Assembly (NCBI GenBank): GCA_001314865.1 | Contig: LJZR01000031.1 | Span: 1 to 47,756 of the forward strand | Length of the DNA stretch: 47,756 nucleotides | Direction of reading: 5' to 3' | From: Phormidesmis priestleyi Ana | GTDB lineage: Bacteria > Cyanobacteriota > Cyanobacteriia > Phormidesmidales > Phormidesmidaceae | Part shown: positions 20,618-43,893 of the stretch, piece by piece | Layout of the letters: every line of letters begins with the position of its first letter | How positions within the stretch are numbered: the first letter of the stretch is position 1 | Position numbers and translations under genes: made by a program | Notes under the pieces: generated by a model | Databases searched by the model: none | Seen by the model: only the letters and a program-made list of their open reading frames with translations | What the model was told of the DNA's origin: nothing

Positions 20618-20869
20618 TTATTGGATTAACTCCCATGCCTTCTTCACCCTTTTCTTCTGTACAGTCTTCTTCTGTATAGCCTGCTTCTGTACCGTTTTCG
20701 CCTCTCTCTTCGCCTCTTCCTTCGGATTGGCTTGAGTGCATTTGCGTGAGGAAAGAATGTGGGTGCCTCCCGCCAAAAATACCCGCACCCCCATCGCAAA
20801 ATACTCGCGCCCTACGCTCATCATTTTTTCAACCCCTTGGTGCATAAAGGCTTTGGCGGTTGAGTACAT
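20618..20869 (-). CDS. Small protein with a Lys/Gln-repeat tail, unknown
   Basis: An 83-residue frame with a credible ribosome site (AGGA, 8 bases before the ATG). The N-terminal half (AFMHQGVEKMMSVGREYFAM, GVRVFLAGGTHILSS) looks like a compact amphipathic helical segment. The C-terminal half is a basic repeat tail (VQKQAIQKKTVQKKRVKK). The DNA under it is a TTCTTCTGTAC-type tandem repeat. It faces gap1 with 13 bp between stops. The function is unknown. A basic tail might bind nucleic acid or acidic partners. Confidence 0.5.
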   Translation of the reverse strand: MYSTAKAFMHQGVEKMMSVGREYFAMGVRVFLAGGTHILSSRKCTQANPKEEAKREAKTVQKQAIQKKTVQKKRVKKAWELIQ

Positions 20870-21002
20870 TGTAATTATCCTAGTTAGTCCCGATGAGTGT
20901 AGGCGATCGCCTACGCTAAATCGCCCCTGCTATAAATAAATGAAACACGGCTGCACTGAACCCACGTTGTGCCGTGTTAGCCCTCCGCACCGGAGAAACT
21001 CT

Positions 21003-21977
21003 ATGTTTAGGAAAGCGACCGTGGCTCCAGAGCGAGAACCGATTCCTCAGTTGGAAACAATTCCCCAACTCAAAGAAGAAATTGAGAGCTTAAAGTCTCA
21101 GACGGCAACCGCTTTTAACGTGCCTATCGATAAAATTATTCCTTTACAGCTGCCAGACGGCATGAAGCAGCCAAGACTGTATTTTGATTCGCATAAAATG
21201 GAGTTGCTGAAAGAATCTATCGCCAAACATGGAGTGCTTGAGCCTATTTTGTTGCGGAATTCTCCAGGAGAACAATTTGAGCTTATTAGCGGCGAAAGAC
21301 GCTGGCGCTGTTGCTTGGCGCTTAATTTAAAGAGCATTCCTGGCATTATTCGCCAAATGTCAGATTCAATGGCGCTAGAAGCCGCTATTATCGCTCATCT
21401 TTTGAGCGAGGAGACTTCTTTAATAGAACAAACCGAGAGTATTTTGAGTCTGCTTTCTCTGCGATTAGGGCCACCGCCTGACGTGCTTAAGGGCTTGCTG
21501 TATCAGGTCAAAAACTCGCAGATGCGAGGAACTGGCCAAACCCATGCGCTAAGCGATCAGCAAATCGCTGTGGTGAATTCAATATTGGCGGAGTTTAGCA
21601 TAAAGCTCTCAAGCTTTGTTGCTAATCGTTTGCCGCTGCTTAATTTGTCGCCTGCCATTTTATCGTCGGTTAGATCCGGTAAGCTTTCACCGACTAATGC
21701 CCTGCTGATAAATCGTCAGCCTGATGAGTTTCATGACACTTTAATTGCGCAGGCAGAAGGCAAAACCAAGGGCGAACTAGCTCGCTTAATTAAGGGAATT
21801 GTTGTTTCAGATAAGGATGTGGATAAGGAGAAAAGAATTACTCAGACAATCTATGCCCGAATTAGGTCTGTTAGTAAGAAAACGGGTTTGCTAGACAATC
21901 CTGAAGTGAAGAATCGACTGGCGCAAATTGAGGCGCTGCTGCAAGAAATTGAATCGATGGAATCTATCCATGAGTGA
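21003..21977 (+). CDS. ParB/Spo0J-family DNA-binding protein without a ParA neighbour
   Basis: A 324-residue ParB-type protein. The N-terminal nuclease/CTPase-like domain (~35-145) has IAKHGVLEPILLRNSPG and the signature SGERRWRCCLAL. A central helix-turn-helix region (~150-260) and a C-terminal helical part (~270-324, likely dimerising, QIEALLQEIESMES) follow. I took the ATG at 21003, with GGAG about 8 bases upstream. The upstream 21 codons of the frame look noncoding. No parA is next to it. Orphan ParB-like proteins can act as regulators. A perfect palindrome overlaps its stop codon, and a related one lies 2.6 kb away. A HIP1-centred palindrome (GTAGGCGATCGCCTAC, 20899-20914) lies upstream. 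Confidence 0.85.
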   Translation: MFRKATVAPEREPIPQLETIPQLKEEIESLKSQTATAFNVPIDKIIPLQLPDGMKQPRLYFDSHKMELLKESIAKHGVLEPILLRNSPGEQFELISGERRWRCCLALNLKSIPGIIRQMSDSMALEAAIIAHLLSEETSLIEQTESILSLLSLRLGPPPDVLKGLLYQVKNSQMRGTGQTHALSDQQIAVVNSILAEFSIKLSSFVANRLPLLNLSPAILSSVRSGKLSPTNALLINRQPDEFHDTLIAQAEGKTKGELARLIKGIVVSDKDVDKEKRITQTIYARIRSVSKKTGLLDNPEVKNRLAQIEALLQEIESMESIHE

Positions 21978-21995
21978 GAATTCCAGAATTCTCAC
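21974..21995. promoter_or_regulatory. 22-bp palindrome overlapping the parB stop
   Basis: Arms GTGAGAATTC and GAATTCTCAC flank a CA centre. The TGA stop of the ParB-like gene is inside the first arm. The inner 18 bases have the same arms (GAGAATTC/GAATTCTC) as the palindrome at 24568-24585. It could be a DNA-binding site (parS-like or for CnfR). It could also be a terminator hairpin, since TGTCTTTT follows. Confidence 0.5.
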
Positions 21996-22064: not shown

Positions 22065-23666
22065 CTAGCGAATATCTAATACTTGGCGCAGCATCGACTG
22101 ATCCTCACCATTGACCTTAAATCGCCCCTTTTCAACATCTCGAATCCAACTTTGGCTTTTGCCCAAACGCTCAGCCAAAGCACGCTGACTCAGCTTTTGG
22201 CGCTGGCGGGCTACATTAATATCCTGGCCTGAAAGCTTTTGGCTCTCTGGCGTAACCGTCCAGGCTTTAGCCTGCCGATGACGACGCTTGGTGGTTCGTC
22301 GCTGGACATTTTCCTGCCATTCTTCTGAGAGTTCAAACCCTAGCAAACGGGCATTGAGGATGCGCTGCCACTTATCGCGCGGCGCATTTTCGGTGAGTGC
22401 GCGGCCAGCCTCATCAGCCCAAAAATTCAAGGCATCATCAACATCATCTGGAATATCAGCCATTTTTACCCACAGTGGCTGAATTTCCAATGGGTAGGTA
22501 ATAGGATCAAAAAGGGGTTTAAGGCCGTGGTAGTAAATGGTTTCTAAATCGCTCTCAAAAGTCTTTAGCAGTCGTTTATGAGCGCCGCGTACTACAGTCG
22601 CCTGCTGTAGTCTATCTGCGCCATAGGCAATTCGCATCAGCGTACTCGCCTTCATCCGCTGATCACCTCCTAGCCTGAGCTTAAACAAATTCCATAACAA
22701 CAGTCGAACAGCGCCCTCGTGCTGTTGCCAGTTGTTCATGACTTCTTTGAGCAGCGCCTGAGGTAGGGTGCCGTACTGATAAAAGGCTGTTTGGCCCCGA
22801 TACTCATGCTTATTGAGAAAATGCTTTGCCCATTGCCCCGCTTTTACCGTAAATCCTAAGCCGATCAGATGGCGATCGCCTTGCGCATTTTCTTCAAAAT
22901 AGTACTGAGTATCTAGCAGGTTCCAAACGGCGTGCTCTTTTAGGCTAAAGGCACGAACTCTACCCTGGCGCGGCCAATCGAGAGAAACCAAAACCTGACA
23001 AGACTGATAAACCAAATTTTTAATCAAGGTGAGTTTTTCTAGCTTGCTCAAGTCTTTCCGCCGATCTAGCCCCAAATATTTCTCTATATGCTGATCGTTC
23101 AAAACAAAAGACTCTTGCCAAGGGCGATCTATCGTCATTGCATAGGCCGCAAAAATAAGATGCACGCAAGAGGCTCGAATGTCGAACTGTGCGATCGCCG
23201 CCATGCCTGCTTTCTCCGCCAAGGGCACCGGCAACGCTATTTCAGGATCTGCGGCTAACCGAAACCGCATTTCTCCTCGATTGCGATTCACAGGGCGCTG
23301 ATAACAGAGCCGGTCGTCTGTATCGGTTTGCCAGGGAAGGCTCTGGCGTTGGGCTAAAATGTTGCAGGTTTCCCACATCACCATACAGGAGGCAAAGGGA
23401 GTGGTCTTACGATTGAGAAAAATCGTGGGAATGGCCACAGGCAGCAGCGTACTTTTGCAGCGTCCTTTCTTGGGCTGCAAGGGCGCCAATGCGTCTACCT
23501 CACAAGACTGAACGCACAGCGGAACCTCCAAATCTGGGCAGCCATCGCACAATGTTGGATCAATCCAATAGCCTGCCTTTTGAGCGTCAGCCTTAATCGC
23601 TCCATTCGGGCATTGAGGCTGACAAATATCACAAGAAATGCAATTGTCCTTGACGGTGTAAGTCAT
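22065..23666 (-). CDS. cnfR: CnfR/PatB-like nif transcription activator (ferredoxin domain + HTH), copy 1
   Basis: A 533-residue protein with the architecture of the cyanobacterial low-oxygen nif activator CnfR (PatB in heterocystous species). Residues 9-19 carry CxxCxxCxxxCP (CISCDICQPQCP). A second four-cysteine set follows (CDGCPDLEVPLCVQSC), giving two 4Fe-4S clusters. The ~400-residue middle part has no motif I can name. Residues ~480-533 form a helix-turn-helix (KLSQRALAERLGKSQSWIRD). In the family the clusters are thought to sense oxygen, and the HTH binds nif promoters. A paralogue lies 1.75 kb away. There is no good ribosome site before the ATG. An inverted repeat ACTTAC/GTAAGT lies at 23739-23755. 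Confidence 0.88.
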   Translation of the reverse strand: MTYTVKDNCISCDICQPQCPNGAIKADAQKAGYWIDPTLCDGCPDLEVPLCVQSCEVDALAPLQPKKGRCKSTLLPVAIPTIFLNRKTTPFASCMVMWETCNILAQRQSLPWQTDTDDRLCYQRPVNRNRGEMRFRLAADPEIALPVPLAEKAGMAAIAQFDIRASCVHLIFAAYAMTIDRPWQESFVLNDQHIEKYLGLDRRKDLSKLEKLTLIKNLVYQSCQVLVSLDWPRQGRVRAFSLKEHAVWNLLDTQYYFEENAQGDRHLIGLGFTVKAGQWAKHFLNKHEYRGQTAFYQYGTLPQALLKEVMNNWQQHEGAVRLLLWNLFKLRLGGDQRMKASTLMRIAYGADRLQQATVVRGAHKRLLKTFESDLETIYYHGLKPLFDPITYPLEIQPLWVKMADIPDDVDDALNFWADEAGRALTENAPRDKWQRILNARLLGFELSEEWQENVQRRTTKRRHRQAKAWTVTPESQKLSGQDINVARQRQKLSQRALAERLGKSQSWIRDVEKGRFKVNGEDQSMLRQVLDIR

Positions 23667-23779
23667 AGGGAAATGATCTGCTTGCTAATAAAGCAGATAG
23701 AGGATGTTCTACTTAAGGCTTAAAAATCTCACTCACTCACTTACTCCATGTAAGTAAATTGGCATCATGAAATCGTAGA

Positions 23780-23864
23780 CACTGCACGCCCCCCGACCCT
23801 CAAAGTTTGGGGGCTCTGAGTCCGGCTTCCCCCAAGCTTGGAGGACTGAGGGGGCAATGCAGTG
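23780..23864. repeat. MITE-like element with terminal inverted repeats
   Basis: An 85-bp GC-rich block bounded by CACTGCA and TGCAGTG, with nested complementary runs (GCCCCCCGACCCTC against GAGGGGGC, and CTCAAAGTTTGGGGG). It can fold end to end. Similar CCCCC...GGGGG hairpins are dispersed in cyanobacterial genomes. A weaker relative lies at about 30218-30280. No target-site duplication is visible. Confidence 0.5.
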
Positions 23865-23958
23865 ATTCTGTTTCATTTTTAATTTAATTACACTGGGTTA
23901 CTTAGCTATCTAAATCTTTTTCGTAAACTCTCGTACTAATGTCTTTATTTGAGTAAAT

Positions 23959-24030
23959 ACTCAAGTATCTATTCAAGTATTCACTCAAGTATTCACTCAA
24001 GTATCTATTCAAGTATTCACTCAAGTATTT
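23959..24030. repeat. 12-bp tandem repeat, six copies
   Basis: Six copies of ACTCAAGTATTC and close variants lie head to tail. The variants occur in the order A-B-C-A-B-C, so a 36-bp block was itself duplicated. It is AT-rich and in phase with a weak minus-strand frame that I consider noncoding. Confidence 0.8.
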
Positions 24031-24411
24031 ATTAACTGCGGCAGGGGACGTATTATGTCTTTTGTTCTGCAAAGCAGGTCGCTCCAAATGCTCTCACAGG
24101 TTAAACCCTGAGATCACAAGCTGAGGGAACTGCAATTAAATAACCTATTGGCGTAGGGGCTTATGGCACTGCTGTGCCCAATGCAATCAGCCTTACTACC
24201 AACGGTATTTTTATTAAACGCACATTCCTAAGGTCAAAAAAAGAGCTAAGGTCAAAAAAAGATTCAGATACTAATCAAAAAAGAATCAAGGCAAAAATTT
24301 TGCTTTTTGCTCATTTATGCATTTTGATTCATGTGTTCTTGTTTATGAATCCATGCATTCTTATTTGCATTCTTATTTATGAACTTTCACCATTCATTCA
24401 TGATTGTTCAT

Positions 24412-24498
24412 GTGGTTTCATTTATGTATTAGGTATAACAACTCAATAGGCCTGATTCTATGCCATTCGATACAGTTTAATTATTTCTTTATTAGTTG
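24412..24498 (+). promoter_or_regulatory. Conserved noncoding element, copy A (upstream of cupin)
   Basis: The block shares GGTTTCAT, ATTAGGTATAACAA, TTCTATG, GATAC, GTTTAAT and TTTCTTTATTA, in order and at nearly equal spacing, with 27248-27338. The copy ends 100 bp before the cupin start. A partial third copy, ATTAGGATATAACAGCT, lies at 24529-24545. Conservation without an open frame suggests a nif-related control region or a remnant of a duplicated cnfR promoter. Confidence 0.55.
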
Positions 24499-24567
24499 TT
24501 TTGAAGACCCTTAAAGCAGTTGCTAAAAATTAGGATATAACAGCTTTAACAACAATCATTAATAACC

Positions 24568-24585
24568 GAGAATTCTAGAATTCTC
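24568..24585. promoter_or_regulatory. 18-bp perfect palindrome just upstream of the cupin gene
   Basis: Arms GAGAATTCT and AGAATTCTC are complementary without a mismatch. It ends 13 bp before the GTG start, overlapping the leader next to the AAGGA ribosome site. A bound protein or a hairpin here could block transcription or translation. The same arms occur at 21974-21995. Confidence 0.5.
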
Positions 24586-24598
24586 AAAGGAATTAGAC

Positions 24599-25255
24599 GT
24601 GAGTAAAGATTGGCTAGTGATAGAAGAAGGGAGATGCCAACCATGCCCCAAAGTGCGGGAGTGGGACTTGCTTGAAACCCCCTATCGCTTCTATCGTTTT
24701 TTAACGGAAGTAGAAGATGTTTTGAAGGCTCATGCATTTAGATGCCACTCTGACGGTCAATCTAGCGGTCAATCTAGCGGTCAATCTAGCGGTCAATCTA
24801 GCGGCCAATATGAATATTTGTCGGCACTTCGTCGGTTAGTTCGCAAGCTGTTTATTAACTCTTACTGGCTGCAATCGCAGCGCCCAACCGCTCCCCTGCT
24901 AAACCTTTACGATGAAACAGGTTACCCTTTAACTGTGCAAATAGAGACTCTGCTGCCAGGTACTATGTCACCTATTCATAACCATGGCACTTGGGGTATT
25001 GTTGCGGTACTCCAAGGGCAAGAAAAGAACACCTTATGGAGAAGATCACCCGAACGCTTGTTCCCTGATAAGATTATTTGTGTTGAAGAAAAGACTTTTT
25101 GCCATGGTGATATTGTGAGCTTTTTGCCAGAGGCAATTCATCGAATTCAAGCCGTTGGCATAGAACCTTTGGTAACCTTTAATATGTATGGAGAAACCGA
25201 TCGCAAGCGGCGATTTAGGTTTGATCCACTAACTCACCAAGCACGGCATTATTGA
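24599..25255 (+). CDS. Cupin protein, cysteine-dioxygenase type, in the nif block
   Basis: A 218-residue protein of the cupin fold, resembling cysteine dioxygenases. The metal motif is seen in MSPIHNHGTWGIVAVLQG, with a later histidine in PEAIHRIQAV. Such enzymes oxidise thiols with iron and oxygen, but the substrate here is unknown. Cupins of this type occur in cyanobacterial nif regions, so a link to sulfur supply or oxygen handling is plausible. Residues ~53-69 are a GQSS repeat, coded by four 12-bp copies of GGTCAATCTAGC (24755-24802). This disordered insert is absent from ordinary dioxygenases. The start is GTG, with AAGGA 8 bases upstream. It diverges from cnfR copy 1 and converges on copy 2. 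Confidence 0.75.
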   Translation: MSKDWLVIEEGRCQPCPKVREWDLLETPYRFYRFLTEVEDVLKAHAFRCHSDGQSSGQSSGQSSGQSSGQYEYLSALRRLVRKLFINSYWLQSQRPTAPLLNLYDETGYPLTVQIETLLPGTMSPIHNHGTWGIVAVLQGQEKNTLWRRSPERLFPDKIICVEEKTFCHGDIVSFLPEAIHRIQAVGIEPLVTFNMYGETDRKRRFRFDPLTHQARHY

Positions 25256-25420
25256 CACCGCAATGTTCAATAGTTATTGAATAACTACTTGCTTAGAGCT
25301 GTTTAATAAGGGTCTTGCGTTTAATAAAAATGCCGTTGATAGTAAGGTTTATTACAGGCCGCTGACTGGTATCTATTGGAGGCGAAAATTCTCTTACCAC
25401 GAAGTACGTGAGGGTTGAAA

Positions 25421-27121
25421 TTATGTGATATTTAGCGCCTGGCGTAGCCGCATTTCATCTTTAGCGCTAATGCTAAAGCGGCCTTTTTCAACATCGCGAA
25501 TCCAGCTCTGGCTTTTGCCCAAGCAGTCGGCCAGGGCACGCTGACTCAGCTTGTTTTGCTGACGCGCTACTTTGAGCTTGCTACCCGTGAGCGAAGGATT
25601 CGCCTGCGTGGTCGGGTCATGCCAGGAGTGGGCCTCAACGGAGTGCGGTTGTCTAGCTTGAGAGAATTTTACTTGAGAGAATTGCGCGTTGGATTTTGAC
25701 GAGTTGCGGCGAGGCTTAGGCTCGCTACGACGCATTGTTTGCTGCCACACCTCTGATAGCTCAAAGCCTGATAGACGCGCATTTAATAATCGTGGCCATT
25801 TATCTCGGGGCGCATGGTTTGTGAGCAAGCGGCTTGCATCATCTGTCCAAAACGCTAACTCATCGTCAACATTGTCTGGAATGGCATGCGCTTTGACCCA
25901 CAGCGGTTGAATATCAGCCGGATAGGTTGCCAGATCAAAACAAGGCTTTAATCCATGGTGACAAATGGCTTCTAAATCGCCTTCAAAGGTTTTGAGTAGT
26001 CGCTTATGCGCCCCCCGCACGGTGATGGCTTCTTTGAGCCGCTCTTCGCCATAGGCAATGCGCAACAACGTGCGTATGGTCAACCGATGGTCGCCGCCTA
26101 GCCGTAGCTTAAACAATAGCCACAGCAGTATCCGCACTGCGCCTTCATGCTGTTGCCAGCTGCTCATTACCTCTGTGAGCAGGACTTGCGGTAGACTGCC
26201 ATATTGAAAAAACGCTGTTTGGCGGCGATAGTCTCGTTTGTTGAGAAAGTGCTTGGCCCATCCTCCGGCGCGTATGGTAAAGCTAAGGCCAATCAAATGC
26301 TGAGCGCCTTGAGTATCTTCTTCAAAATAATATTGGGTGTCGAGCAAATTCCAGATGGGTTGCTCATTTAAGGTAAAAGCCTGAACCTTGCCCTGACGCG
26401 GCCAATCGAGAGAAACCAAAATACGGCAAGATTGATATACCCAATTTTTGATTAAGGTGAGTTTGTCAAGCTTGCTTAGGTCTTTGCGCCTATCAAGGCC
26501 CAAATATTTTTCGATATGCTGGTCGTTTAGGGTAAAGGCGTCTTTCCAGGGGCAATCGAGTGTGACCACATAGGCGGCAAAAATGAGATGAGCGCAGGTT
26601 GCTCGAATATCAAACTGGGCGATCGCACCCCTTGCCTCCTCGGTTGACATCGGCAGGAGAGAATCTCCTTTGGAAGTTTTGTCAGGAGACCTTTCAGGAT
26701 TCATCGCCAGTCGAAATCGCATTTCGCCGCGACCGTGATTGACCGGTCGGCGGTAACAGAGCTTACCCGTGGCATCGCTTTGCCAAGGCAAAAGCTGCCG
26801 CTGGGACAATACCGTACAGGTCTCCCAAATCACCATAGAAGAGGCAAATGGCGCTGTTTGCCCATTGATAAAAATTTCGGGAATCGCCGGTGGGAGCAGC
26901 GTACTTTTACAACGGCCTCTTTTGGCTTGTAAAGGTTGTAAGTAAGCGTCTGACTCACAAACGCTTACACAGCGAGGAACCGCAACATCTGGGCAGCTAT
27001 TGCAAAGCGTTGGATCGATCCAATATCCTTCGCGTTCTGTAGAAGGCTTAATTGCGCCGCTTGGGCATTGAGGCCAGCAGCGATCGCAGCCGCGACAACC
27101 CTCTTTAATGGTGTAAACCAT
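25421..27121 (-). CDS. cnfR: CnfR/PatB-like nif transcription activator, copy 2
   Basis: A 566-residue paralogue of the 22065-23666 product, alike over almost its whole length. The cluster motifs are CRGCDRCWPQCP (9-20) and CNSCPDVAVPRCVSVC. The C-terminal helix-turn-helix is KLSQRALADCLGKSQSWIRD. Differences are a ~15-residue insert after the RFRLAMNPE segment and a longer, basic, Ser/Gln-rich linker (~455-510) before the HTH. Two CnfR proteins controlling two different nif clusters are known in Anabaena variabilis. Here both sit in one locus. Either they split targets or conditions, or one is a backup. It shares a conserved upstream element with the cupin/cnfR copy 1 spacer. Confidence 0.88.
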   Translation of the reverse strand: MVYTIKEGCRGCDRCWPQCPSGAIKPSTEREGYWIDPTLCNSCPDVAVPRCVSVCESDAYLQPLQAKRGRCKSTLLPPAIPEIFINGQTAPFASSMVIWETCTVLSQRQLLPWQSDATGKLCYRRPVNHGRGEMRFRLAMNPERSPDKTSKGDSLLPMSTEEARGAIAQFDIRATCAHLIFAAYVVTLDCPWKDAFTLNDQHIEKYLGLDRRKDLSKLDKLTLIKNWVYQSCRILVSLDWPRQGKVQAFTLNEQPIWNLLDTQYYFEEDTQGAQHLIGLSFTIRAGGWAKHFLNKRDYRRQTAFFQYGSLPQVLLTEVMSSWQQHEGAVRILLWLLFKLRLGGDHRLTIRTLLRIAYGEERLKEAITVRGAHKRLLKTFEGDLEAICHHGLKPCFDLATYPADIQPLWVKAHAIPDNVDDELAFWTDDASRLLTNHAPRDKWPRLLNARLSGFELSEVWQQTMRRSEPKPRRNSSKSNAQFSQVKFSQARQPHSVEAHSWHDPTTQANPSLTGSKLKVARQQNKLSQRALADCLGKSQSWIRDVEKGRFSISAKDEMRLRQALNIT

Positions 27122-27247: not shown

Positions 27248-27338
27248 GCGGTTTTCATAAATAATAAAATTAGGTATAACAAGCTCATATCACGTGTTCT
27301 ATGTCACAGGATACGGTTTAATGTTTTCTTTATTATTT
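27248..27338 (+). promoter_or_regulatory. Conserved noncoding element, copy B (upstream of cnfR copy 2)
   Basis: It matches 24412-24498 in the same orientation: GGTTTTCAT, ATTAGGTATAACAA, TTCTATG, GATAC, GTTTAAT, TTTCTTTATTA. It starts 127 bp upstream of the cnfR start and points away from it. No cupin gene follows here, so this looks like the counterpart of a cnfR-cupin spacer that lost its cupin. Confidence 0.55.
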
Positions 27339-27479: not shown

Positions 27480-27974
27480 TCAAGCGCAAATCCTCTGAAG
27501 TCGGCTCATATGCTCAAACAGCTGCCAGCAGTATTGTTCTGGCAGGCCGCAAGTGGTTGCGCCTCGCATTACGACGTTGAAGTACCAGTCGTTGGGTGGA
27601 ATCTCAAGGGACGTTTTTTTGACGACGCTATAGGTTCGTACCTGAATATAGTGCCGGTCGTTGCTTTTGAGGGTGATTTTGAGCTGGCGATAGTTGGCTT
27701 GCTGAACGCCTTCGCGCTGATCGAGGCGATCGCTCAATCGCCAAGGCAATCGGTACAAAACACCGTGAACCTCACGGCTAGGGTCGGGCAAAATGTCGAG
27801 CGCGCCGCACTGTCGCCGAGCCGAGTAATAGTTAAAGCCCAGTCGATAGCCTTTTAAGGCTGCTGTGCCGATAATGTAAGGGTGAGTATTTTCTCCTAGC
27901 GATCGCTTCAAATCAACCGGGCACATGCACGAACCATAGGCAAAGTAGTGAAAGCAAGGCTCGGAGATCAACAT
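27480..27974 (-). CDS. Gamma-glutamylcyclotransferase-fold (GGCT/AIG2-like) protein
   Basis: A 164-residue GGCT-like protein. The substrate-binding turn is YFAYGSCM near the N-terminus. GYRLGFNYYS, DPSREVHGVLYRLP and LDQREG follow; the Glu in the LDxREG stretch is the expected general acid/base. Members cleave gamma-glutamyl amines or peptides, including glutathione derivatives, to 5-oxoproline. It has no signal peptide. It lies between the Fe-S protein gene and cnfR copy 2, all on the minus strand, so a role with the nif block (for example glutathione or cysteine turnover) is possible but inferred only from position. Confidence 0.8.
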   Translation of the reverse strand: MLISEPCFHYFAYGSCMCPVDLKRSLGENTHPYIIGTAALKGYRLGFNYYSARRQCGALDILPDPSREVHGVLYRLPWRLSDRLDQREGVQQANYRQLKITLKSNDRHYIQVRTYSVVKKTSLEIPPNDWYFNVVMRGATTCGLPEQYCWQLFEHMSRLQRICA

Positions 27975-28087: not shown

Positions 28088-28756
28088 TTAGCAAAAGTGT
28101 TTTTCAATTAGGGCAGATACCGCTTCAGGGCGCAGCCCATCATAGCGATGCTTTCCTGGCATAATGACCAAACCGGGCGCTTTAGCGCAGCACTTTTGAC
28201 AGCCCGTATATTGAATTTCAACTTGATCCTGTAGCTGATAATCTTTTAGTGCCCGCTCCAACGCTTCTACAAGTTGGCGACCGCCTCGCTTTTTGCAGCC
28301 CGACTTGTGGCACACCATAATTTTAGAAGCCGGTTGGTTGGCTGAGGTTGCTGCCAACAAAGTGGGTTTCCCCGGATTCAAAAAAAGGCAGTACGCTTTT
28401 AGCTCAATCACGCCAGCCGAAAAATTTAGCTGACTGCGACCAATACAACGAACCTGAGCCCCGAGCGGTAATACACGTCGTCGCACCGCGTGTTTTACCG
28501 CCTCACACAAATTTTTAGGCAGCTTAATGGCCATTTGTTCTTGATCAACTTCTAGCACCATCGCAGTCACATGATCGGGGGCCTCACCGAGAAATCCCAA
28601 GAAGGTGCCTTCGAGGTTAAAGATCCAAGGCAGTGAGGGTGAGGTCTCTAATTTGGCTGAAGGTCTCTGTGAACGAGTCTTTGCGGTATTGGAGGTGGCA
28701 TTGGATGCGGTCTTTGAACGGGTCTTTGAGCTAGTTGCTGACCGAATATTAGACAT
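28088..28756 (-). CDS. OB-fold + thioredoxin-like 2Fe-2S ferredoxin protein
   Basis: A 222-residue protein with three parts. The first ~38 residues are a Ser/Thr/Arg-rich, low-complexity leader. Residues ~42-130 look like an OB-type beta domain (FNLEGTFLGFLGEAPD...IKLPKNLC...VIELKAYCLFL). Residues ~145-222 form a thioredoxin-like 2Fe-2S domain, with cysteines in MVCHKSGCKKRGG and YTGCQKCCAKAPGLVIMP. This C-terminal domain is like those of NuoE/HoxE and clostridial 2Fe-2S ferredoxins. It probably carries or senses electrons. It is the last gene of the nifV-nifT run, 63 bp after nifT. The leader may be a tandem-repeat expansion. Confidence 0.78.
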   Translation of the reverse strand: MSNIRSATSSKTRSKTASNATSNTAKTRSQRPSAKLETSPSLPWIFNLEGTFLGFLGEAPDHVTAMVLEVDQEQMAIKLPKNLCEAVKHAVRRRVLPLGAQVRCIGRSQLNFSAGVIELKAYCLFLNPGKPTLLAATSANQPASKIMVCHKSGCKKRGGRQLVEALERALKDYQLQDQVEIQYTGCQKCCAKAPGLVIMPGKHRYDGLRPEAVSALIEKHFC

Positions 28757-28819: not shown

Positions 28820-29023
28820 TTAGGTTAATCGTCTGGCTCGAACTGTTTGAGGTGTTTGAATCGGGTGGCTCAGCCCTGCAATGAATAAATCCCAGCCGTT
28901 GGCCAATGTGAGAATTTGATCGTCGTCAGTTTGGGTTTGTTTAATCACTTCTTGCTCTAGGTCTTTTTTGGCGACATAAGCCATCAATTTTCCGGCGCGG
29001 TCGGTATGAAGCATTACTTTCAT
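28820..29023 (-). CDS. nifT: NifT/FixU-like protein
   Basis: A 67-residue protein starting MKVMLHTDRAGKLMAYVAKK and containing DLEQEVI and LTLANGWDLFI, the conserved core of NifT/FixU. NifT is a small protein of unclear role in nitrogenase maturation and is usually dispensable. It lies 27 bp after nifV on the same strand, which matches common nifV-nifZ-nifT orders in cyanobacteria (no nifZ is seen here). The last ~15 residues (PIQTPQTVRARRLT) extend past the usual end. Confidence 0.85.
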   Translation of the reverse strand: MKVMLHTDRAGKLMAYVAKKDLEQEVIKQTQTDDDQILTLANGWDLFIAGLSHPIQTPQTVRARRLT

Positions 29024-29050: not shown

Positions 29051-30181
29051 TTAACGTTTTTGGAGAGGGTGCTCGGTGGCCAAGGCGAGTAGTTCATCTA
29101 CTGTCAGGCTGCGCTTGAGTTCGGTGGCGCGATCGCGCACTGCATTTAACACTAACTGGCTATCTGCCGCATCACAGGGCATTCCGGAGTCTTGCAATAC
29201 CCAGTCCAGCAAGTGGCGACCAGAATGTTTGCCCACCACTAGCTGCCGCTGCCAGCCCACTTCTTTGGGATCAAAGGGTTCGTAGGTACGGGGGTTTGCC
29301 AGCACGCCATGGGCGTGAATGCCCGACTCATGGGCAAAGGCGTTAGTTCCAACAATGGCTTTCCAAGGCGGCACCGGACAGTTCACGGCTTTTGCCACTG
29401 ATCGAGATAGCTCCAGCAAATGCTGCGTTTGAATGCCGGTTTTAAGGCGGTAGATTTGTTTGAGTGCCATCACCACTTCTTCGAGTGCTGCATTTCCAGC
29501 GCGTTCGCCCAATCCATTCACGGTGGTATTAATAGAGGTCGCACCAGCTCGCAGACCGGCTAATGCATTGGCTGTTGCGAGCCCCAAGTCATTATGGGTG
29601 TGCATTTCTACTGGAATATTTAAAGCAGCGACTAAGTTTTGGACTTTTTCATAGGTTGTAAACGGGTCGAGAATTCCAACCGTGTCACAAAATCGAAAGC
29701 GAAATGCGCCCCATTCTTGAGCAAACTGGGCCACATCGGTTAAAAACAGTTCATCGGCGCGTGAGCTGTCTTCGCCGCCTACACTCACTTCTAAGCCATG
29801 GTCGAGGGCAAAGTTAATGGCATCTCGCAGCTGTCGCAACATGGCGCTCCAACGGCCTTGAAACTTCACCTGAATTTGCACATCCGATACAGGGATAGAA
29901 ATATGTACTCGCTTTAGGCCGCAGCAAATGGAGGCTTGAATATCCGCGATGACAGCGCGGTTCCAGCCCAAAATGTGAGCATTTAGGCCAAGATTAACAA
30001 TCGCCCGAATCGATTGGGCCTCTGTTTGCCCCATCGCTGGAATCCCAACTTCGAGTTCGGGTACACCAATGGTATCGAGAAATTTGGCGATCGCAACTTT
30101 CTCTTCTAGCCCAAAAGCGACCCCGGCTGCCTGCTCGCCGTCACGCAAAGTGGTGTCGTTAATATACACATTTGAAAACAT
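29051..30181 (-). CDS. nifV: Homocitrate synthase
   Basis: A 376-residue enzyme of the HMGL/DRE-TIM family that joins acetyl-CoA and 2-oxoglutarate to give homocitrate, the organic part of FeMo-cofactor. The signature [17 protein letters not shown] is at the N-terminus. The metal site [16 protein letters not shown] and [14 protein letters not shown] follow. [10 protein letters not shown] lies in the second half. The length and motifs fit NifV better than LeuA (about 500 residues). AGGAG lies 9 bases before the ATG; a GTG one codon earlier is possible. It heads the nifV-nifT-2Fe-2S run and follows dps after a 105-bp spacer with a hairpin. Acetyl-CoA for it could come from the nearby Pfl route. 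Confidence 0.94.
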
Positions 30182-30250
30182 CACAGCAGACTCCTAAGCG
30201 ACTGTATAAAGGTAGTTCCCCTCTCCTAAAATTGGAGACTCCGAGTCTGA

Positions 30251-30286: not shown

Positions 30287-30844
30287 TTACTTTAAGAAAG
30301 CAAAGGTCAGACTGTCTTCAGTCAAGAAGTGATCTAGGTGAAAGGCCCGGTCTTCTGTTTCTAGCAAAATTTGTTCATAGAGATAGCGAGTTGCTCTATC
30401 GCCCAGGCTTTCTGCCTGATTGGCCAAACGGCGCAGCAGCGCAATCACCGCTTGCTCAGCCGCCAAATCATTTTCAATCATTTGCCGACACACATACGCG
30501 CCATCTGGCTCCATGTCAAAGCAGCACAGTTCAGTTAGGGTAGAAAAAGACCCTGCGGGAATACCCCCGAGCCCATTGAGTCGCTCGGCAATATCATGGG
30601 CATGTTCTTGCGTTTTGCCGTAGCTTTCCTGAAAAAATTCGTGAATAGAATAGAATTCGGCCCCTTCGATCACAAAGTGTTGTTTTTGGTACTGGAGGTA
30701 AAGGCCCTGAAAGCTGGCATAGGCCATGTTTAAACCTTCGCACACGGGAACGGTAATGTCTTTATCTAAGCCGATGGGGTTAGGGCCAACATCGCCAAAA
30801 GCGCGAACCAGGTTTTGAACAGATTGAACGGTTTGAGTAGTCAT
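30287..30844 (-). CDS. dpsA: Dps-family ferritin-like DNA/iron protection protein
   Basis: A 185-residue Dps protein. These form 12-mers that oxidise and store iron with hydrogen peroxide, shielding DNA. Visible are [30 protein letters not shown] in pieces (the ferroxidase Asp/His/Glu region, including HEFFQESY), [12 protein letters not shown], and [14 protein letters not shown]. The length and the extended C-terminus fit cyanobacterial DpsA. The start chosen is the ATG at 30844 with TTGGAG just upstream; the open frame begins 16 codons earlier. dps genes also occur in nif clusters of non-heterocystous cyanobacteria, where peroxide and iron control protect nitrogenase. Confidence 0.92.
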
Positions 30845-30934
30845 GTCATTACTCCAAGAAATGTTTGCAGTTGTTGAGCTTAAGTTGAGCATTAAAGGGT
30901 GAGAATAAACAAATTAAAGCAAATAGTTTGAGAT

Positions 30935-31038: not shown

Positions 31039-31308
31039 TTAGGAAGTAGCACTAGAGACCAGATGGCTCTCCCAGCAACGCTCTAACCAGTCCACACTGT
31101 CTTCCCGAGGGCCGGTGAATCGCCGCACCACGCTGTTGACTAACAACAGCGCAATCGGATGGTTAACATCCACTCGCAAGGTGCCATCAGCTGGGCAGGT
31201 ACAGGGAATGTTGAGTTCTTTGAGCCGAAAGTTAATCGACCAGCGATCAACTCGGGCAACAGAGACAACTTGGCCCAGCTTGGGAGCCGCAGAGGTAGGC
31301 TTATCCAT
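31039..31308 (-). CDS. Small conserved-looking protein coupled to the serine acetyltransferase gene
   Basis: An 89-residue protein starting [20 protein letters not shown]. The core has [20 protein letters not shown] and [10 protein letters not shown], with Cys and Trp residues that look conserved. The ATG at 31308 overlaps the cysE stop by 8 bp, so translation is coupled. The open frame extends further upstream, but that part ([12 protein letters not shown]...) is only the 12-bp repeat array read in another phase. I recall similar short proteins beside cyanobacterial nif genes but cannot name the family. Its place after nifP-like cysE and before dps suggests a nif accessory role. Confidence 0.75.
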
Positions 31309-32185
31309 AGGATTGATACTCCATAGTCGGTAGGGTAGTCGGTAGGGTAGTCGATAGGGCCGTAGATAAAGTAGTCGATAGGCCAGTCGATAAAGCAGTC
31401 GATAGAGCAGTCGATAGAGCAATCGATAGAGCAGTGGTGGGCATTGCAGATTGCGCTAAAGGGGCGCGTAAGGATAAATGGGTCATGTTTTTAAGACTGT
31501 TGAGCTGGCCTTCTAATTGTTCAATCCGAGCCAGCAGTCGCTGTAGCGTATCGGCTTCAATATCCGGCAGGTGAGCGTGCTCTAAGGGGGTCGTTGCTGT
31601 ATTGCATTCACACACATTGCGGCTAGGAACCCCGACCGCAGTGCAGTTAATTGGAACATCGTGCAAAACAACAGAGCCCGCGCCAATGCGAGCATGGTCA
31701 CCAATGTGGATGTTGCCTAATACCTTTGCCCCTGCGCCAATAACAACCTGGCTACCAACTGTAGGATGGCGCTGACCGGTTTCTTTCCCAGTGCCGCCCA
31801 AGGTGACGCCCTGATACAGCAGTGCATAGTCACCCACAATCGCCGTTTCGCCAATCACAATTCCCATGCCATGATCGATAAAAACGCCGACGCCGAGCTG
31901 CGCACCAGGATGAATTTCAATGCCAGTGAGGCCTCGGGCCAGGTGAGAAATGAAGCGTGGCACAAAAGGAACCCTTTGCTGATGCAGCCAGTGAGCGAGT
32001 CGGTAGGCCGCGATCGCATGCAAACCAGGATAACAACACAGCACTTCTAACCCGTTTCTAGCGGCTGGGTCTCGCTCAAAGACAATGGCAAAATCTTCCC
32101 AGAGGGGACACTGTTGAATCGTGAGCAAACGCCGTATGCTGCTAGTAGAAAATCTCTTTAGCGCGTGGTGAGTGGGAAGTAACAT
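31301..32185 (-). CDS. cysE: Serine O-acetyltransferase, NifP-like, with repeat tail
   Basis: A 294-residue left-handed beta-helix enzyme that makes O-acetylserine from serine and acetyl-CoA, the carbon skeleton of cysteine. The hexapeptide core has [17 protein letters not shown] and [16 protein letters not shown] (the catalytic histidine regions) and [20 protein letters not shown]. Nif clusters often carry such a copy (nifP) to boost cysteine supply for Fe-S clusters. The ATG at 32185 is my choice; a TTG start at 32254 is open. The last ~45 residues are ALST-type repeats coded by a 12-bp array and are not part of the normal enzyme. Their removal should not affect the fold. Confidence 0.9.
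31325..31432. repeat. 12-bp tandem repeat, nine copies, in the cysE 3' end
   Basis: Nine head-to-tail copies of AGTCGATAGAGC and variants (AGTCGGTAGGGT, AGTCGATAAAGC) encode the Leu-Ser-Thr-Ala repeat tail of the acetyltransferase. As the unit is a multiple of three, copy-number change keeps the frame. The upstream leader of the next gene's open frame is this array too. Confidence 0.85.
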
Positions 32186-32790
32186 GGCAGGGTGGGGCTG
32201 TGTTTCTCTGTTTATAGCAATCGCGTTTTGGGTGGGGCGATCGCACCCTGCCAATCCAGATTGACTAAAACCATTAGTCTTGCACTCAAAAGCTCAACCC
32301 CTTTATACACAAAGGAGAGAAAAAAGTTTGGGTAAGGGGGACGAGTATTTTGGCCTGCCAGGGCAAGTATTTCTAAAGATGGGTACAGGTATTCTGCACT
32401 CATAAGAGAAACGTTAAAATTATTGGTATGCTTGGCTTATGGCCGTCTTTAGGTAGGCGTAAGAGACCGTTTTGGGCTGTACTCAAAACCAGTTTTTTAC
32501 CTTGCAATCATAACTCTCTTAAACAAACAGTAACAAAGAATGCAAAATGCTTTTGATTGAATTTTAAATAAATTAAAGGACTGCTTGAGAAGCTGTGACT
32601 ATCCTAAAGATTAGAATATGCTTGACTGAAGATATGTTTGACTGAAGACATGCCTGACTGAAGACATGCCTGACTGAAGACATGCCTGACTGAAGACATG
32701 CCTGACTAAAGACATGCTTGTTCCTAAATACTTTTCAAATTCAAAATTTGCGAACTACTTTTTGACTGTGTTCTATAGCGATGACTCGTG
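32186..32790. other. Intergenic region between cysE and the MFS transporter gene
   Basis: About 600 bp between divergent genes with no supportable gene. The first part repeats GGCAGGGTG around a HIP1 site just before cysE, a possible short duplication. The middle is AT-rich. The right end has the 16-bp tandem repeat at 32624-32719, about 70 bp before the transporter start. Confidence 0.6.
32624..32719. repeat. 16-bp tandem repeat, six copies
   Basis: Six copies of GACTGAAGACATGCCT lie head to tail; copies 2-5 are perfect and the two outer ones differ at two or three positions. It lies about 70 bp upstream of the transporter start, in its likely promoter. It is noncoding. A unit of 16 bp would change promoter phasing if copies are gained or lost. 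Confidence 0.85.
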
Positions 32791-34336: not shown

Positions 34337-34647
34337 CAGACAAAGTTCAGCATCAGCTGGGTCGCTTCGCTTTGCGGTGAGTACCAACCATAGTTTTCCG
34401 CATACCATCGGTTTTCAGGGCAATCGGCAGTCGCCAATATGCGCTCATCGTCAATCTTGTACTCAAAATCAACAGTATTGCCAGAAGAACGCAGACTGCT
34501 CGTATCAACAGAGATATTCTCGTTCCTTCCTCGCCCTTTGTAAGCGTTGCCTTATTTGCGGATCTCTACCCAAAACCCAATACTAAGATATGCGTACTGC
34601 TATTGAAATTTCAGACGTAAAGCAAAAGACATTGTATAAATAATTGA
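34337..34647. other. Intergenic region before the nuclease/PRTase-like pair
   Basis: Some 310 bp without a convincing gene. A short plus-strand frame at 34590-34643 reads MRTAIEISDVKQKTLYK, like the start of a ribbon-helix-helix antitoxin that breaks off at once. It could be a remnant or chance. The region probably holds the promoter of the nuclease/PRTase-like pair. Confidence 0.45.
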
Positions 34648-35541
34648 ATGTACTCAGACAATAAGATCAGTCAGCTATTTGGTGATCAATCGCTCGCATA
34701 TGTAAAAAATAGGCATAGAGGTGGTACAAACAACGAAAAAGGCAATACCTATGAGAACTTCTATACAACCTACAAAATTGCCTTACTGTCAGCCGATGCT
34801 ATTGAAAAACAGGCAAGCATCAAATTTTATAGCCAAGTTCTGTCCTTTGTCGATGATTTAATCATTCTCTACGAAGAGGAAAATAGACTCCAACACCATC
34901 AGTTAAAGAACAGCTTAAACGTGAGCTGGGGAAGTGATCTTAAGTCAATATCCAATGATTTTGAGAAGCAGGAAATCCTTAACCAAAGTATAGACAAAGC
35001 GTCAGAGCTTGTTTTAGTTGTTTCAGATCAGCCTCTTCAACAACGATTATCTGCCGCCATCCCTGCTGCTATACAAGCGTTTAGCAAGGTCGCTTACTTT
35101 CCCCACCGGCGAACGTTGATGCAAGTGATTCATGCAGTTCCTGAGTTTTACGAAGCTATCAAATACCTCTGTGCCTTCGAAGATCCAGCCCCAGATAAAA
35201 TAGAGTGCGTTGCTCAAGTATTGCTAGGGAGCTGGTCGTCCTGTAGCAAGTCTGGCCTTTCCGTCATAGATATCTTGACAAAAGCGCAGAACTCGTCACC
35301 TTCTTTCATTCGATCCTTTGACGGCACCCTATTGCTAGATTCAGAGGTTGCGAGTATTTTAAGTAATATTGCTAACTTTCAATTTAACCTCTCAAAAGGT
35401 TTCCTCCACTGGCAATATGGCCATAATATTGACCAAGGAACCATTCCTTACTGCATTAGCCACCCTAATTTTCGCCGATTCCAAGAACGGATAAAAGCCT
35501 CTAACCCCAAAACCTTTGAAGAATTCGAGATCTTGCTATGA
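34648..35541 (+). CDS. Putative PD-(D/E)XK nuclease, Cap4/DUF4297-like N-terminus
   Basis: A 297-residue protein that I do not recognise as a named family. Its first ~100 residues have the layout of Cap4/DUF4297-type nucleases: GGTNNEKGNTYENFYTTYK (GG at 25-26, Glu36), a strand with two aspartates (Asp69-Asp70 in FVDDLIILYEE), then HHQLKNS with Gln85 and Lys87 as the Q-x-K variant of the catalytic pair. The rest (~130-297) is helical, with no motif I can name, and may be a sensor or partner-binding part. It overlaps the next gene by 4 bp (ATGA). I infer a DNA-cutting effector of a two-gene conflict system. Fold prediction would test it. Confidence 0.6.
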   Translation: MYSDNKISQLFGDQSLAYVKNRHRGGTNNEKGNTYENFYTTYKIALLSADAIEKQASIKFYSQVLSFVDDLIILYEEENRLQHHQLKNSLNVSWGSDLKSISNDFEKQEILNQSIDKASELVLVVSDQPLQQRLSAAIPAAIQAFSKVAYFPHRRTLMQVIHAVPEFYEAIKYLCAFEDPAPDKIECVAQVLLGSWSSCSKSGLSVIDILTKAQNSSPSFIRSFDGTLLLDSEVASILSNIANFQFNLSKGFLHWQYGHNIDQGTIPYCISHPNFRRFQERIKASNPKTFEEFEILL

Positions 35542-40678: not shown

Positions 40679-40971
40679 GAGATCTGGTCTCCAAAAGATG
40701 GGTTTGGGAGGAAACCAGAACTCAACTAAACCTAGCCACCCCGAGAAGATGTAGTGCAAGTCGAGGTGGCTAAGGTAAAGTAACCCTAGCTGCCGGGATT
40801 GCTGCGTAATCCTGGGGGTTAGCTATCGGTAGGTGTTGGTAGCACCTGCCGATGGCGCTAAGCAAAATTGAGTTCTGAGAAGGCACTGTGATAAGCATCA
40901 CAGCTTAGAATTGAAGATAATCTGATTCTTGGCGGTAGTCAAGCAGCGTGGCGATTTTGGAGGGGATGGTG
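40679..40971. other. Spacer with a hairpin before mntA
   Basis: About 290 bp with no gene. It contains a hairpin, TCGGTAGGTG/CACCTGCCGA (about 40828-40854), with one mismatch and a 7-base loop. A second arm pair may be formed with flanking GGGTTAGCTA. The GGAGGGG ribosome site of mntA is at its end. Confidence 0.5.
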
Positions 40972-41277
40972 ATGAATGAGTCGGTGCTGGGCCGCGACCA
41001 GCTTCAAAATTTGCTGAGAGACTTTATGGCCCACCATGGGGCTGATTATCATCTGCAAAAGATTGGCTTCTTTGGCTCTTATGCTCGCGATCAGGCGACA
41101 GCTGAGAGCGATGTAGATATTGTGTTTGCGACTGACCGGCCTAATCTCCTGACCACTTCTGCCCTAAAGCAAGATCTAGAAGTTTTGCTAGGGCGAAAGG
41201 TCGATGTGATTCGCCTGCATCAATACCTAAGCCCAGCCTTCAGAGATCGCATAGAAAAAGAGGCCATCTATGTCTGA
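40972..41277 (+). CDS. mntA: MntA-type nucleotidyltransferase antitoxin
   Basis: A 101-residue minimal nucleotidyltransferase. The metal and ATP site GSX10DXD is complete: Gly35-Ser36, Asp47 and Asp49 in GSYARDQATAESDVDIVF. MntA antitoxins silence the HEPN toxin by adding AMP to a tyrosine near its active site. I chose the ATG at 40972, 6 bases after GGAGGGG; the frame opens at a GTG at 40948. It overlaps the hepT gene by 8 bp, the usual order for this pair. Confidence 0.9.
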   Translation: MNESVLGRDQLQNLLRDFMAHHGADYHLQKIGFFGSYARDQATAESDVDIVFATDRPNLLTTSALKQDLEVLLGRKVDVIRLHQYLSPAFRDRIEKEAIYV

Positions 41278-41671
41278 TAGATCTAACAATGATCTTGTTT
41301 TGATAGGGTTGAGGTTAAGATCCGTGTTAGCTGCACTAGAACGCATTCCTCGACGCTTTGTGGCTATTTCAGAACCCAGCGATTTTGTGAGCAGCGAAGC
41401 TGGCTTAGATAAACTGGATAGTATCTGTATGGTTTTGATTGCCGCAGGCGAAGAATTTAAGCAGATTGACCGCAAAACTGAGGGGGCATTATTCGCTAAG
41501 TACCCCCAAGTCTCTTGGCGCAGTGCGATTGGCTTACGAGACGTTTTAGCCCATGCGTACTTTCAGGCTGACCCGGAACAGATTTATGCAATTTGTAAAG
41601 ACAACATTCCGTCGTTAATTGAGACTTTACAACTGATAATTTACGATTTAGACAAGAACGCTGTACTCTAG
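41270..41671 (+). CDS. hepT: HepT-type HEPN RNase toxin
   Basis: A 133-residue HEPN (DUF86) protein. The catalytic RX4HXY motif is intact, Arg90-His95-Tyr97 in RDVLAHAYF. Tyr97 is the residue AMPylated by MntA in characterised pairs. HEPN toxins are metal-independent RNases acting as dimers. It is translated from an ATG inside the mntA end. The pair therefore looks functional, unlike the debris on both sides. Confidence 0.9.
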   Translation: MSDRSNNDLVLIGLRLRSVLAALERIPRRFVAISEPSDFVSSEAGLDKLDSICMVLIAAGEEFKQIDRKTEGALFAKYPQVSWRSAIGLRDVLAHAYFQADPEQIYAICKDNIPSLIETLQLIIYDLDKNAVL

Positions 41672-41800
41672 CGAAGCGCGAACGTCAGCTCGGTTTGCAT
41701 CCTGGGGCTTTTGTCATCATTGACGACTTTGATGATCCGTTGCCTGATAACTTTTGGCTAGGCAAAGAATGAAGCTGTTACTGGATACCCACACTTTTAA
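41671..41800 (+). pseudogene. Debris of an antitoxin (DUF2281-like) and a PIN toxin start
   Basis: Directly after hepT the plus strand reads RQLGLHPGAFVIIDDFDDPL then PDNFWLGKE and TGA, the typical C-terminus of DUF2281-like antitoxins. An ATG overlapping that TGA (ATGA, 41769-41772) starts MKLLLDTHTF, the classic first strand of a PIN toxin with its catalytic Asp. Sequence then runs into the next gene without further similarity. Both genes are truncated: one lost its front, the other its rear. The junctions mark two deletions. Confidence 0.65.
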
Positions 41801-42021
41801 ACCGATGCAGGATGACCCATCTCGACACTCACACTGTCTAAGCAGTCATCCTTGGGGCGATAAGATAGCAGTTCCATGCCGATAGGTTCGCCTGTTTCTT
41901 CGTCTTTAATCAAGAGAACACCATCGCCAAGTTCGGTGACGATTTGCTGTTTGCGGGGGGACTGCCAAAATACGGTCAGCAGTTCAAGTTCTGGTTCGTA
42001 GTAAATTTTTACCTGTGCCAC
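41797..42021 (-). CDS. DUF2283 family protein
   Basis: A 74-residue DUF2283 protein (AQVKIYYEPELELLTVFW, LLIKDEETGEPIGMELLSY). DUF2283 proteins are small and beta-rich. Many are encoded beside small toxin-like genes, so an antitoxin role is often proposed. The start is GTG. The upstream remnant of a toxin-like gene overlaps its start. The partner being broken, this may be a solitary antitoxin. Confidence 0.8.
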   Translation of the reverse strand: MAQVKIYYEPELELLTVFWQSPRKQQIVTELGDGVLLIKDEETGEPIGMELLSYRPKDDCLDSVSVEMGHPASV

Positions 42022-43173: not shown

Positions 43174-43176
43174 GTT

Positions 43177-43827: not shown

Positions 43828-43893
43828 TTCCCGTTATTTTATGCTCAAAGTTGGCACGCAGGTATTATGGAGTTAGAGTATCATAAGTTCTCT

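Follow-up and report, generated by a model that had tools for sequence, protein, structure and literature searches.

The DNA analysed here, referred to as the window, is the 47,756-nucleotide contig LJZR01000031.1 of the cyanobacterium Phormidesmis priestleyi Ana. It harbors two neighbouring genes for CnfR-type activators of nitrogen fixation (nif) genes, cnfR-A and cnfR-B, with a cupin gene between them, a ParB-like gene (parB) next to cnfR-A, and the run nifP-dpsA-nifV-nifT-orf222-AIG2 adjoining cnfR-B (Table 1). The wiring of the locus, consisting of these genes, a promoter element shared by the two cnfR genes, a CnfR-type site at parB and parS-like sites, is well supported by sequence comparison. 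It is considered somewhat probable that the locus constitutes a nif control module of two CnfR, a thiol-dioxygenase-like cupin and a ParB with its own parS-like sites, in which CnfR would activate parB and ParB would tune cnfR-A and the cupin gene.

Table 1. Features of the cnfR locus and the adjoining nif run, in window coordinates
Feature	Position	Strand	Remarks
CnfR-type site TGAGTAC (TTGAGTACATTGTAAT)	20861..20867	+	79 bp upstream of the listed parB start
ParB-like gene (parB)	20940..21977	+	345 aa as listed; homologues suggest a start at 21003; convergent with cnfR-A
parS-like palindrome TGAGAATTCCAGAATTCTCA	21975..21994	.	begins at the stop codon of parB and precedes that of cnfR-A
cnfR-A	22065..23666	-	533 aa; 2[4Fe-4S] N-terminus, initiator-like core, XRE helix-turn-helix; reading frame intact
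cnfR-type promoter element (AAACTGTATC...GCATAGAA...TTGTTATACCTAA) of cnfR-A	24426..24491	-	~0.8 kb upstream of start
parS-like palindrome CGAGAATTCTAGAATTCTCA	24567..24586	.	its end is 12 bp short of the cupin start codon; ~75 bp separate it from the promoter element of cnfR-A
cupin	24599..25255	+	218 aa; predicted thiol-dioxygenase-like fold; conserved His H127, H129, H181
cnfR-B	25421..27121	-	566 aa; longer linker before the helix-turn-helix; reading frame intact
same cnfR-type promoter element, cnfR-B	27267..27332	-	~0.2 kb upstream of start
AIG2-like gene of the nif run	27480..27974	-	
orf222	28088..28756	-	2Fe-2S thioredoxin-like protein
nifT-like reading frame	28820..29023	-	67 aa; presumably nifT; place conserved in the nif run
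nifV	29051..30184	-	homocitrate synthase domains
dpsA	30287..30892	-	ferritin-like
nifP	31301..32254	-	cysE-like; named by context
CnfR-type site TGAGTAC	32479..32485	-	upstream of nifP/cysE

A preliminary description of this DNA had reported two CnfR-like genes in one locus around a cupin gene, and this arrangement was recovered with both reading frames intact; the pair is real and unusual in its setting. The two proteins were identical at 355 of 565 columns (63%, BLASTP), and each presented an eight-cysteine 2[4Fe-4S] ferredoxin domain at the N-terminus and an XRE-type helix-turn-helix (HTH) at the C-terminus, the features by which CnfR/PatB proteins are recognised. In trees built from 85 and 68 of 117 sequences, the rows left aside being mostly heterocystous, ChlR-type or long-branch ones, both copies grouped with nif-linked CnfR and, in the larger tree, the ChlR-type outgroup was split off by a branch with 100% support, so that by tree and context both are CnfR-type proteins. 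The eight cysteines and the near-identical HTH pointed out earlier were found in each copy, yet both are traits of the whole family: C9, C12, C15, C19, C40, C43, C51 and C55, as well as the GKSQSW-RD of the HTH, were invariant in every row of two CnfR alignments (17/17 and 48/48), and the cysteines are therefore a family hallmark and not a mark of the A/B pair. The longer linker ascribed to the second copy was also observed, together with a short insertion around residue 145 of cnfR-B relative to cnfR-A (BLASTP and alignment). Among four congeners, 17 differences between A and B were fixed, with 13 in residues 61-400, one in the iron-sulfur part, one in 401-452 and two in the HTH; no sign of the differing oxygen thresholds suggested earlier was obtained from them. 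Compared between genomes G001 and G002, the ratios of nonsynonymous to synonymous substitution were 0.057 (cnfR-A), 0.096 (cnfR-B), 0.132 (cupin) and 0.134 (parB); comparisons with the window's own genes were mostly saturated.

The same promoter element, composed of AAAC-GTATC, a gap, CATAGAA and then TTGTTATACCT, was found before many CnfR genes of the clade and, with up to three substitutions allowed, before both cnfR-A and cnfR-B in the window and in three congeners (at L055-A, before its open part). Thus, both copies keep the same promoter type with different leader lengths. Since the HTH is nearly the same and this element precedes both genes, the earlier suggestion that the two copies may share DNA sites is plausible. 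No consensus NtcA site was present within the conserved element. When GTA-N8-TAC and near forms were sought up to 400 bp before the genes, NtcA sites preceded two of four cnfR-A, none of four cnfR-B and one of seven cnfR-I (background of 0.2 per 400 bp), and they were placed near –300 before four of six cnfR-II.

The assignment of parB to the CnfR regulon derives from the upstream regions of nifB and nifP. The motifs TTGAGTAC and TGAGTACA each occurred in 12 of 13 such regions, which are related to one another, and in three single-base shuffles no 8-mer exceeded 6/13. These regions often presented the palindrome TTGAGTACTCAA followed by TGAGTACA about 72 bp and 115 bp further on, a layout that fits the three conserved elements upstream of nifB described in the relevant passages of PMC8510180 and the TGAGTATA motif given in a figure legend of PMC4284476. 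The element was named CnfR-type because of its position, its conservation and its likeness to that legend's motif. It was found before parB in the window and in the three congeners (4/4), as a spaced series in three of them; considering all nif-linked parB genes, it preceded all four type-1 loci in which parB stands alone and five of seven type-2 loci, against a background of 0.081 per 500 bp. The extended form TGAGTACA-N3-6-TAAT gave 19 matches in four whole genomes and eight in the reversed control. Its matches included all four parB promoters, nifB of G000, nifB of G004 (identified by its place before fdxN) and nifP of G004 (identified by eye). Twelve further places were inspected one by one, leaving out a match at G004:C350; seven were in coding sequence, two at contig ends with a gene downstream, one before nifP at L211 (by eye) and one before a 125-aa open reading frame (ORF) at L206, and no gene was downstream at L210. 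In G240, whose parB is in the nifP run, nifP itself presented three CnfR-type sites. Judged by these sites, parB belongs to the CnfR regulon.

Other candidate elements were tried and set aside. The bare palindrome TGAGTACTCA was rejected as a specific marker, being found at 25 places in four genomes and at 20 in the reversed control, and TTGAGTACTCAA at up to three mismatches was at chance level in the window (18 found, 18.5 expected). The 12-bp tandem repeats upstream of cnfR-A (23952-24029) were dropped as a CnfR array, given that a 12-bp period also occurs elsewhere in the window, unrelated to it. Two further occurrences of CnfR-type sites were observed: three TGAGTAC within 280 bp (34378-34656) around the start of the ORF at 34648-35541, which may represent a further CnfR-type target or chance, and the same site (TGAGTACAACCGCTTAAT) at the beginning of both contigs C6 and C66 of G000, probably an unresolved repeat.

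The ParB side of the proposed module rests on two palindromes close to TGAAAATTCTAGAATTTTCA that bracket cnfR-A and were found at the same two places in the three congeners. In the window, two matches were obtained at up to three mismatches, with 0.05 expected. At up to two mismatches, genome-wide searches placed the palindrome within 2.6 kb of cnfR in all seven genomes with type-1 ParB that were searched, failed to find it in the three congeners devoid of CnfR, and gave no match with the reversed control in any of the ten genomes. The remaining genome-wide matches were four on C3 of G000, those close to parB on contig C208 of G004, a single one on G001:C3 and another at a different place in G095. 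Similarly, of 78 named cnfR loci, five presented the palindrome at up to two mismatches, all from type-1 genomes, and the other 73 required at least four, the level of shuffles in two-base blocks. Matches away from cnfR were for the most part adjacent to related parB genes. The palindrome was also present at further parB loci resembling type 1, including L194 on a contig of 7.7 Mb. In the window's genome, a 7.3-kb contig (L164) has four TGAAAATTCTAGAATTTTCA copies, one with a mismatch, along with parA, parB, a gene presumably of the DUF1016 type and a gene for a CnfR-like HTH protein. This contig is plasmid-like, and four 20-bp iteron-like repeats spaced by 57-71 bp (316-524) were also noticed beside its CnfR-like gene.

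The palindrome was also informative about gene content. The Geitlerinema locus L071 was chosen for the parS-like site near its cnfR, and a search of that genome gave a ParB at 429 bits encoded by the last gene of nifP-dpsA-nifV-nifT-orf222-AIG2-parB; two known positives were searched alongside, and the six palindrome-free loci taken for comparison gave at most 319 bits. The site near cnfR thus correctly predicted a parB in the nif run. In G240, parB is on a different contig from cnfR and a parS-like site is still found near cnfR. In the type-2 loci, a palindrome, GGAATAACGTTATTCC, is inside parB in six of seven cases, which codon constraint could account for.

The window ParB carries a ParB_N domain and a GERR (GxxR) box, and no parA was found beside its gene, whose neighbours are cnfR-A and an ORF presumably coding for a GAPDH-like protein. 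Two nif-linked ParB clades were resolved: type 1 (support 99/97), comprising the window, the three congeners, L083, L163 and L170, and type 2 (100/100), from seven genomes. The closest clade to type 1 in the tree, its sister, consists of ParB proteins from loci with the same palindrome; two of its members, L164 and L173, occur together with parA. In a scan of 388 genomes of the class, the 13 best ParB matches (at least 456 bits) were all less than 4 kb from a cnfR; the 14th, from G240 (434 bits), was inside its nifP run, and the next scored 415 bits. These 13 genomes were all ten with adjacent cnfR pairs, G095 and G210 with one detected cnfR each, and G167 with two on separate contigs. A Fisher contrast within the 118-genome set (10/10 versus 4/108) ignores shared ancestry and its value was not used. 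A ParB-like gene adjoined the pair in all ten adjacent-pair loci examined; in G240, L083 and Geitlerinema, parB was the last gene seen of a nif run ending in AIG2, and in G095 it followed orf222. In addition, a ParB-like gene was observed near a ChlR-type gene in G019 (L182, 3375-6767), suggesting that ParB may adjoin other members of the CnfR/ChlR family.

In the same class-wide scan, the first three candidates per genome were scored against a CnfR threshold of 620 bits and the list was read by hand. CnfR was found in at least 118 of the 388 genomes and an adjacent pair in at least ten, four of them in the window's genus, including cf. Phormidesmis LEGE 11477 and the metagenome-assembled genome (MAG) Phormidesmis RL_2_1, and six in other families (L056, L144-L148; Pegethrix among them). 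The order cnfR-B, cupin, cnfR-A, parB was found in all four members having CnfR among the seven genomes of the genus searched, and its recurrence in three congeners argues that the arrangement is not due to chance. In these congeners a SelO gene, absent from the window locus, separates the cupin gene from cnfR-B, and two of them carry extra genes between cnfR-B and the nif run. The A and B copies of the genus formed separate clades (100/100 and 100/99) in which the species branched alike, and the pairs from outside the genus fell into clade I (100/100) and clade II (95/94, single copies included). The trees therefore indicate that adjacent cnfR pairs arose at least twice, separately in the genus and in other filamentous cyanobacteria. 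A topology with A and B as sisters from one genus-level duplication was not the best tree, yet it was not rejected (p-AU 0.334).

The genome of the window (5.93 Mb, 136 contigs, completeness 98.83) contains one NifH and one set of NifD, K, E and N, all on contig C5. A second set of homologues on C21 presented the pattern of chlL/chlNB, which are presumably its genes. A second nif cluster as the cause of the two CnfR was therefore rejected for this genome, and the pair is not accounted for by a rule of one CnfR for each nif cluster; the parallel drawn earlier with Anabaena variabilis, where two nif clusters come with two CnfR, does not transfer. Among the PF00148 matches listed, six were found in six of the ten pair genomes, nine in G004 and seven each in G150, G265 and G326.

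The protein encoded between the two activators was modelled (mean predicted local distance difference test score, pLDDT, of 84) with thiol dioxygenases among the leading PDB matches, at a TM-score of about 0.6 in those. It shares with CDO, 3-mercaptopropionate dioxygenase, PCO and ADO the cupin fold and three conserved histidines, which were invariant in 20/20 relatives and predict a 3-His metal site, and differs from them by its low identity (13-20% among the best 50 matches listed). Of 111 CnfR loci, counted with duplicates and with heterocystous strains among them, 28 had a relative of the cupin gene close to cnfR, and paralogues are more widespread. The predicted presence of an oxygen-consuming enzyme, a thiol dioxygenase, between two nif activators is suggestive.

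In the proposed module, CnfR would turn on nif and parB together under low oxygen and low nitrogen. ParB would then load at the two predicted parS-like sites around cnfR-A and spread, limiting the expression of cnfR-A and the cupin gene, most likely as a negative feedback in the manner of KorB, which in RK2 reaches promoters as far as 1.5 kb off by sliding and represses them together with KorA, as described in the passages of PMC11790492 on it. The cnfR-B gene would be freer of this feedback, because its promoter is 2.7 kb from the nearest parS-like site, and the single nif regulon would then be served by a steady activator and a second one limited by feedback. From this arrangement we infer that CnfR and ParB bind their sites and that ParB spreads, as well as the direction in which the feedback acts and the division of labour between A and B. 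The earlier idea that the copies may differ in partners would find a concrete candidate in ParB and its sites around cnfR-A.

Several observations weigh against this module. The presence of parB alongside a single detected cnfR in G095, G210 and G240 implies that the doubling of cnfR is not accounted for by ParB, and no ParB within the nif-linked score range was found in G008 and G355, with two cnfR far apart, or in G012, with two on separate contigs. Two of 100 shuffles of the window also reached two palindromes at up to three mismatches. The exact CnfR-type element was absent at two of seven type-2 parB and at all three type-1 parB inside a gene run; exact sites were found before none of four cnfR-A, four cnfR-B and four g1 cupins, and before one of seven cnfR-I, one of six cnfR-II and one of five other cupins (3/18 together). 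The ENxxR sequence is the box III motif of the CTP (cytidine triphosphate) clamp of ParB. At this box, type-2 ParB presents ENLQR and type-1 ParB presents AHLLS, so that in the latter CTP switching may be lost and the clamp may work by another chemistry; PMC12260392 reports a ParB-like protein of plasmid origin that is independent of CTP. The relatives L164 and L173, with their parA, make a role in partition rather than regulation possible. Moreover, whether the feedback is negative or positive can only be guessed, since VirB, another ParB relative, activates.

Three other explanations of the locus were weighed. A functional split, in which A and B would be one kind of activator produced or working in different oxygen or nitrogen conditions, like CnfR1 and CnfR2, with ParB incidental, is rather unlikely. 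It agrees with the separation of A and B in the tree, each with 99-100% support and the same species order, and with the parts of PMC8510180 reporting that CnfR1 and CnfR2 differ in oxygen response and in the factors needed, hybrids placing specificity in the N-terminal half; against it stand the same promoter element before both copies, the single nif cluster, and the small share of the 17 fixed differences falling in the iron-sulfur part (one) and the HTH (two). Even less probable is the retention of ParB/parS as the leftover of an integrated plasmid or as a DNA segregation device with no role in nif control. The sister clade with parA-linked members and the same palindrome, as well as the 43 plasmid records with CnfR relatives described below, would suit such an origin, but no parA was found beside the window parB, CnfR-type sites precede parB in the four loci where it stands alone, parB is inside the nifP run in G240 and Geitlerinema, and the parS-like site of G240 stays near cnfR with parB on another contig. 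The least probable of the three is that the duplicate was kept merely to raise the CnfR level, with interchangeable copies. The identity of 63% between copies that are each well conserved in the genus is more divergence than interchangeability predicts, although the shared promoter element, the same HTH core and purifying selection on both genes are in line with it. A dispensable copy would also fit the frameshifted cnfR-A of the MAG G004, but the coverage of that contig is low (3.3) and the frameshifts may be errors.

The module of two CnfR and a parS-loading ParB may have a deeper origin in plasmid biology. In the predicted structure of CnfR (mean pLDDT 81), residues 2-64 matched ferredoxins and 476-533 matched XRE HTH domains. 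The core (84-450) matched the initiator Pi of R6K (2nra; Z 10.2, root-mean-square deviation (rmsd) 4.0, 226 aligned) and RctB (5tbf, Z 10.0, rmsd 6.1, 250 aligned; 5ubf, Z 9.9, rmsd 6.6, 252 aligned), a Z of 10 being only slightly higher than unrelated models attain, and with Foldseek RctB 5tbf was the sole match at or below 0.001 (1.4e-4). The likeness to Pi and RctB thus concerns the predicted fold of residues ~84-450; CnfR adds the ferredoxin N-terminus and the XRE HTH and in published work is a transcription activator. At the sequence level, no Rep family appeared among the Pfam matches at E ≤10 for P0001, P0002 or six relatives, and an hmmsearch of PDB sequences returned ferredoxins, other iron-sulfur proteins and HTH proteins among the best 60 of 202 matches. 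CnfR relatives were found on 43 plasmid records (21-47% identity among the best 40 matches listed), the best few resembling CnfR or ChlR proper. Of four annotated records inspected, one carries an annotated parB beside the CnfR-like gene (Acaryochloris pREC2), one has the gene beside a PriCT-2 protein, and two have no annotated par gene. The annotated ParB of pREC2 was too weak a match for the 1e-20 threshold of the ParB search and is not close to nif ParB. On the basis of these models, descent of CnfR from a plasmid replication initiator is plausible. A broader proposal, tentative and given rather less than even weight, is that CnfR is a domesticated initiator-like protein joined to a ferredoxin and that a plasmid maintenance kit (initiator relative, ParB and parS) was rebuilt as an oxygen-gated nif control, in which CnfR would activate parB via spaced repeated sites and ParB, loaded at the parS sites that surround cnfR-A and the gene resembling thiol dioxygenases, would exert feedback on just one of the two activator copies. 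As part of this proposal, ParB may have joined nif loci at least twice, once per lineage with adjacent cnfR pairs.

Two CnfR per genome are not new in themselves; the new part is the ParB/parS wiring. According to the survey in PMC8510180, in the passages on gene number, strains with two Mo-nitrogenase clusters have two cnfR. The CnfR1 and CnfR2 of Anabaena (Trichormus) variabilis described there share the domain plan of the window pair and a similar identity (61% there, 63% here), but each is dedicated to a separate nif cluster and has a different kind of promoter, whereas here neighbouring genes with the same element attend one cluster. The CnfR of Leptolyngbya boryana (PMC5943405) likewise belongs to a non-heterocystous host, controls nifB/nifP and includes nifV, nifT and dpsA in its regulon, but there cnfR is single and the passages on it name no ParB. 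The portions of PMC11790492 and PMC10770331 on KorB of RK2 and VirB describe ParB-family gene regulators that load at their own DNA sites, as is predicted here, but which act in plasmid or virulence control, whereas in the window parB bears the site type of the nif activator and the predicted sites flank the activator gene. No paper linking cnfR with ParB or with replication initiation was found in the open-access literature. The control of nif activation beyond CnfR is poorly known, and a ParB under a CnfR-type site, with predicted parS at cnfR, offers a testable second layer. If true, nif control would be connected with plasmid biology, and the circuit would give reason to look for CnfR feedback and provide a part for nif transfer into non-fixing phototrophs. 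Finally, two cnfR need not imply two nitrogenases.

Some minor features were also recorded. Tandem repeats of 12 bp occur in the coding sequences of nifP (31325-31435) and of the cupin (24754-24809; GQSS repeats). At L051 (6008-8845), a 945-aa ORF presents two nitrogenase-type domains placed like NifE and NifN, consistent with a fused NifEN; a bifunctional NifEN is also listed for Thermoleptolyngbya. Further along the window (40948-46565), genes for a HepT/nucleotidyltransferase pair, a ThsB-type TIR protein, Nmad2, UDG and MazG_C form a possible defence region.

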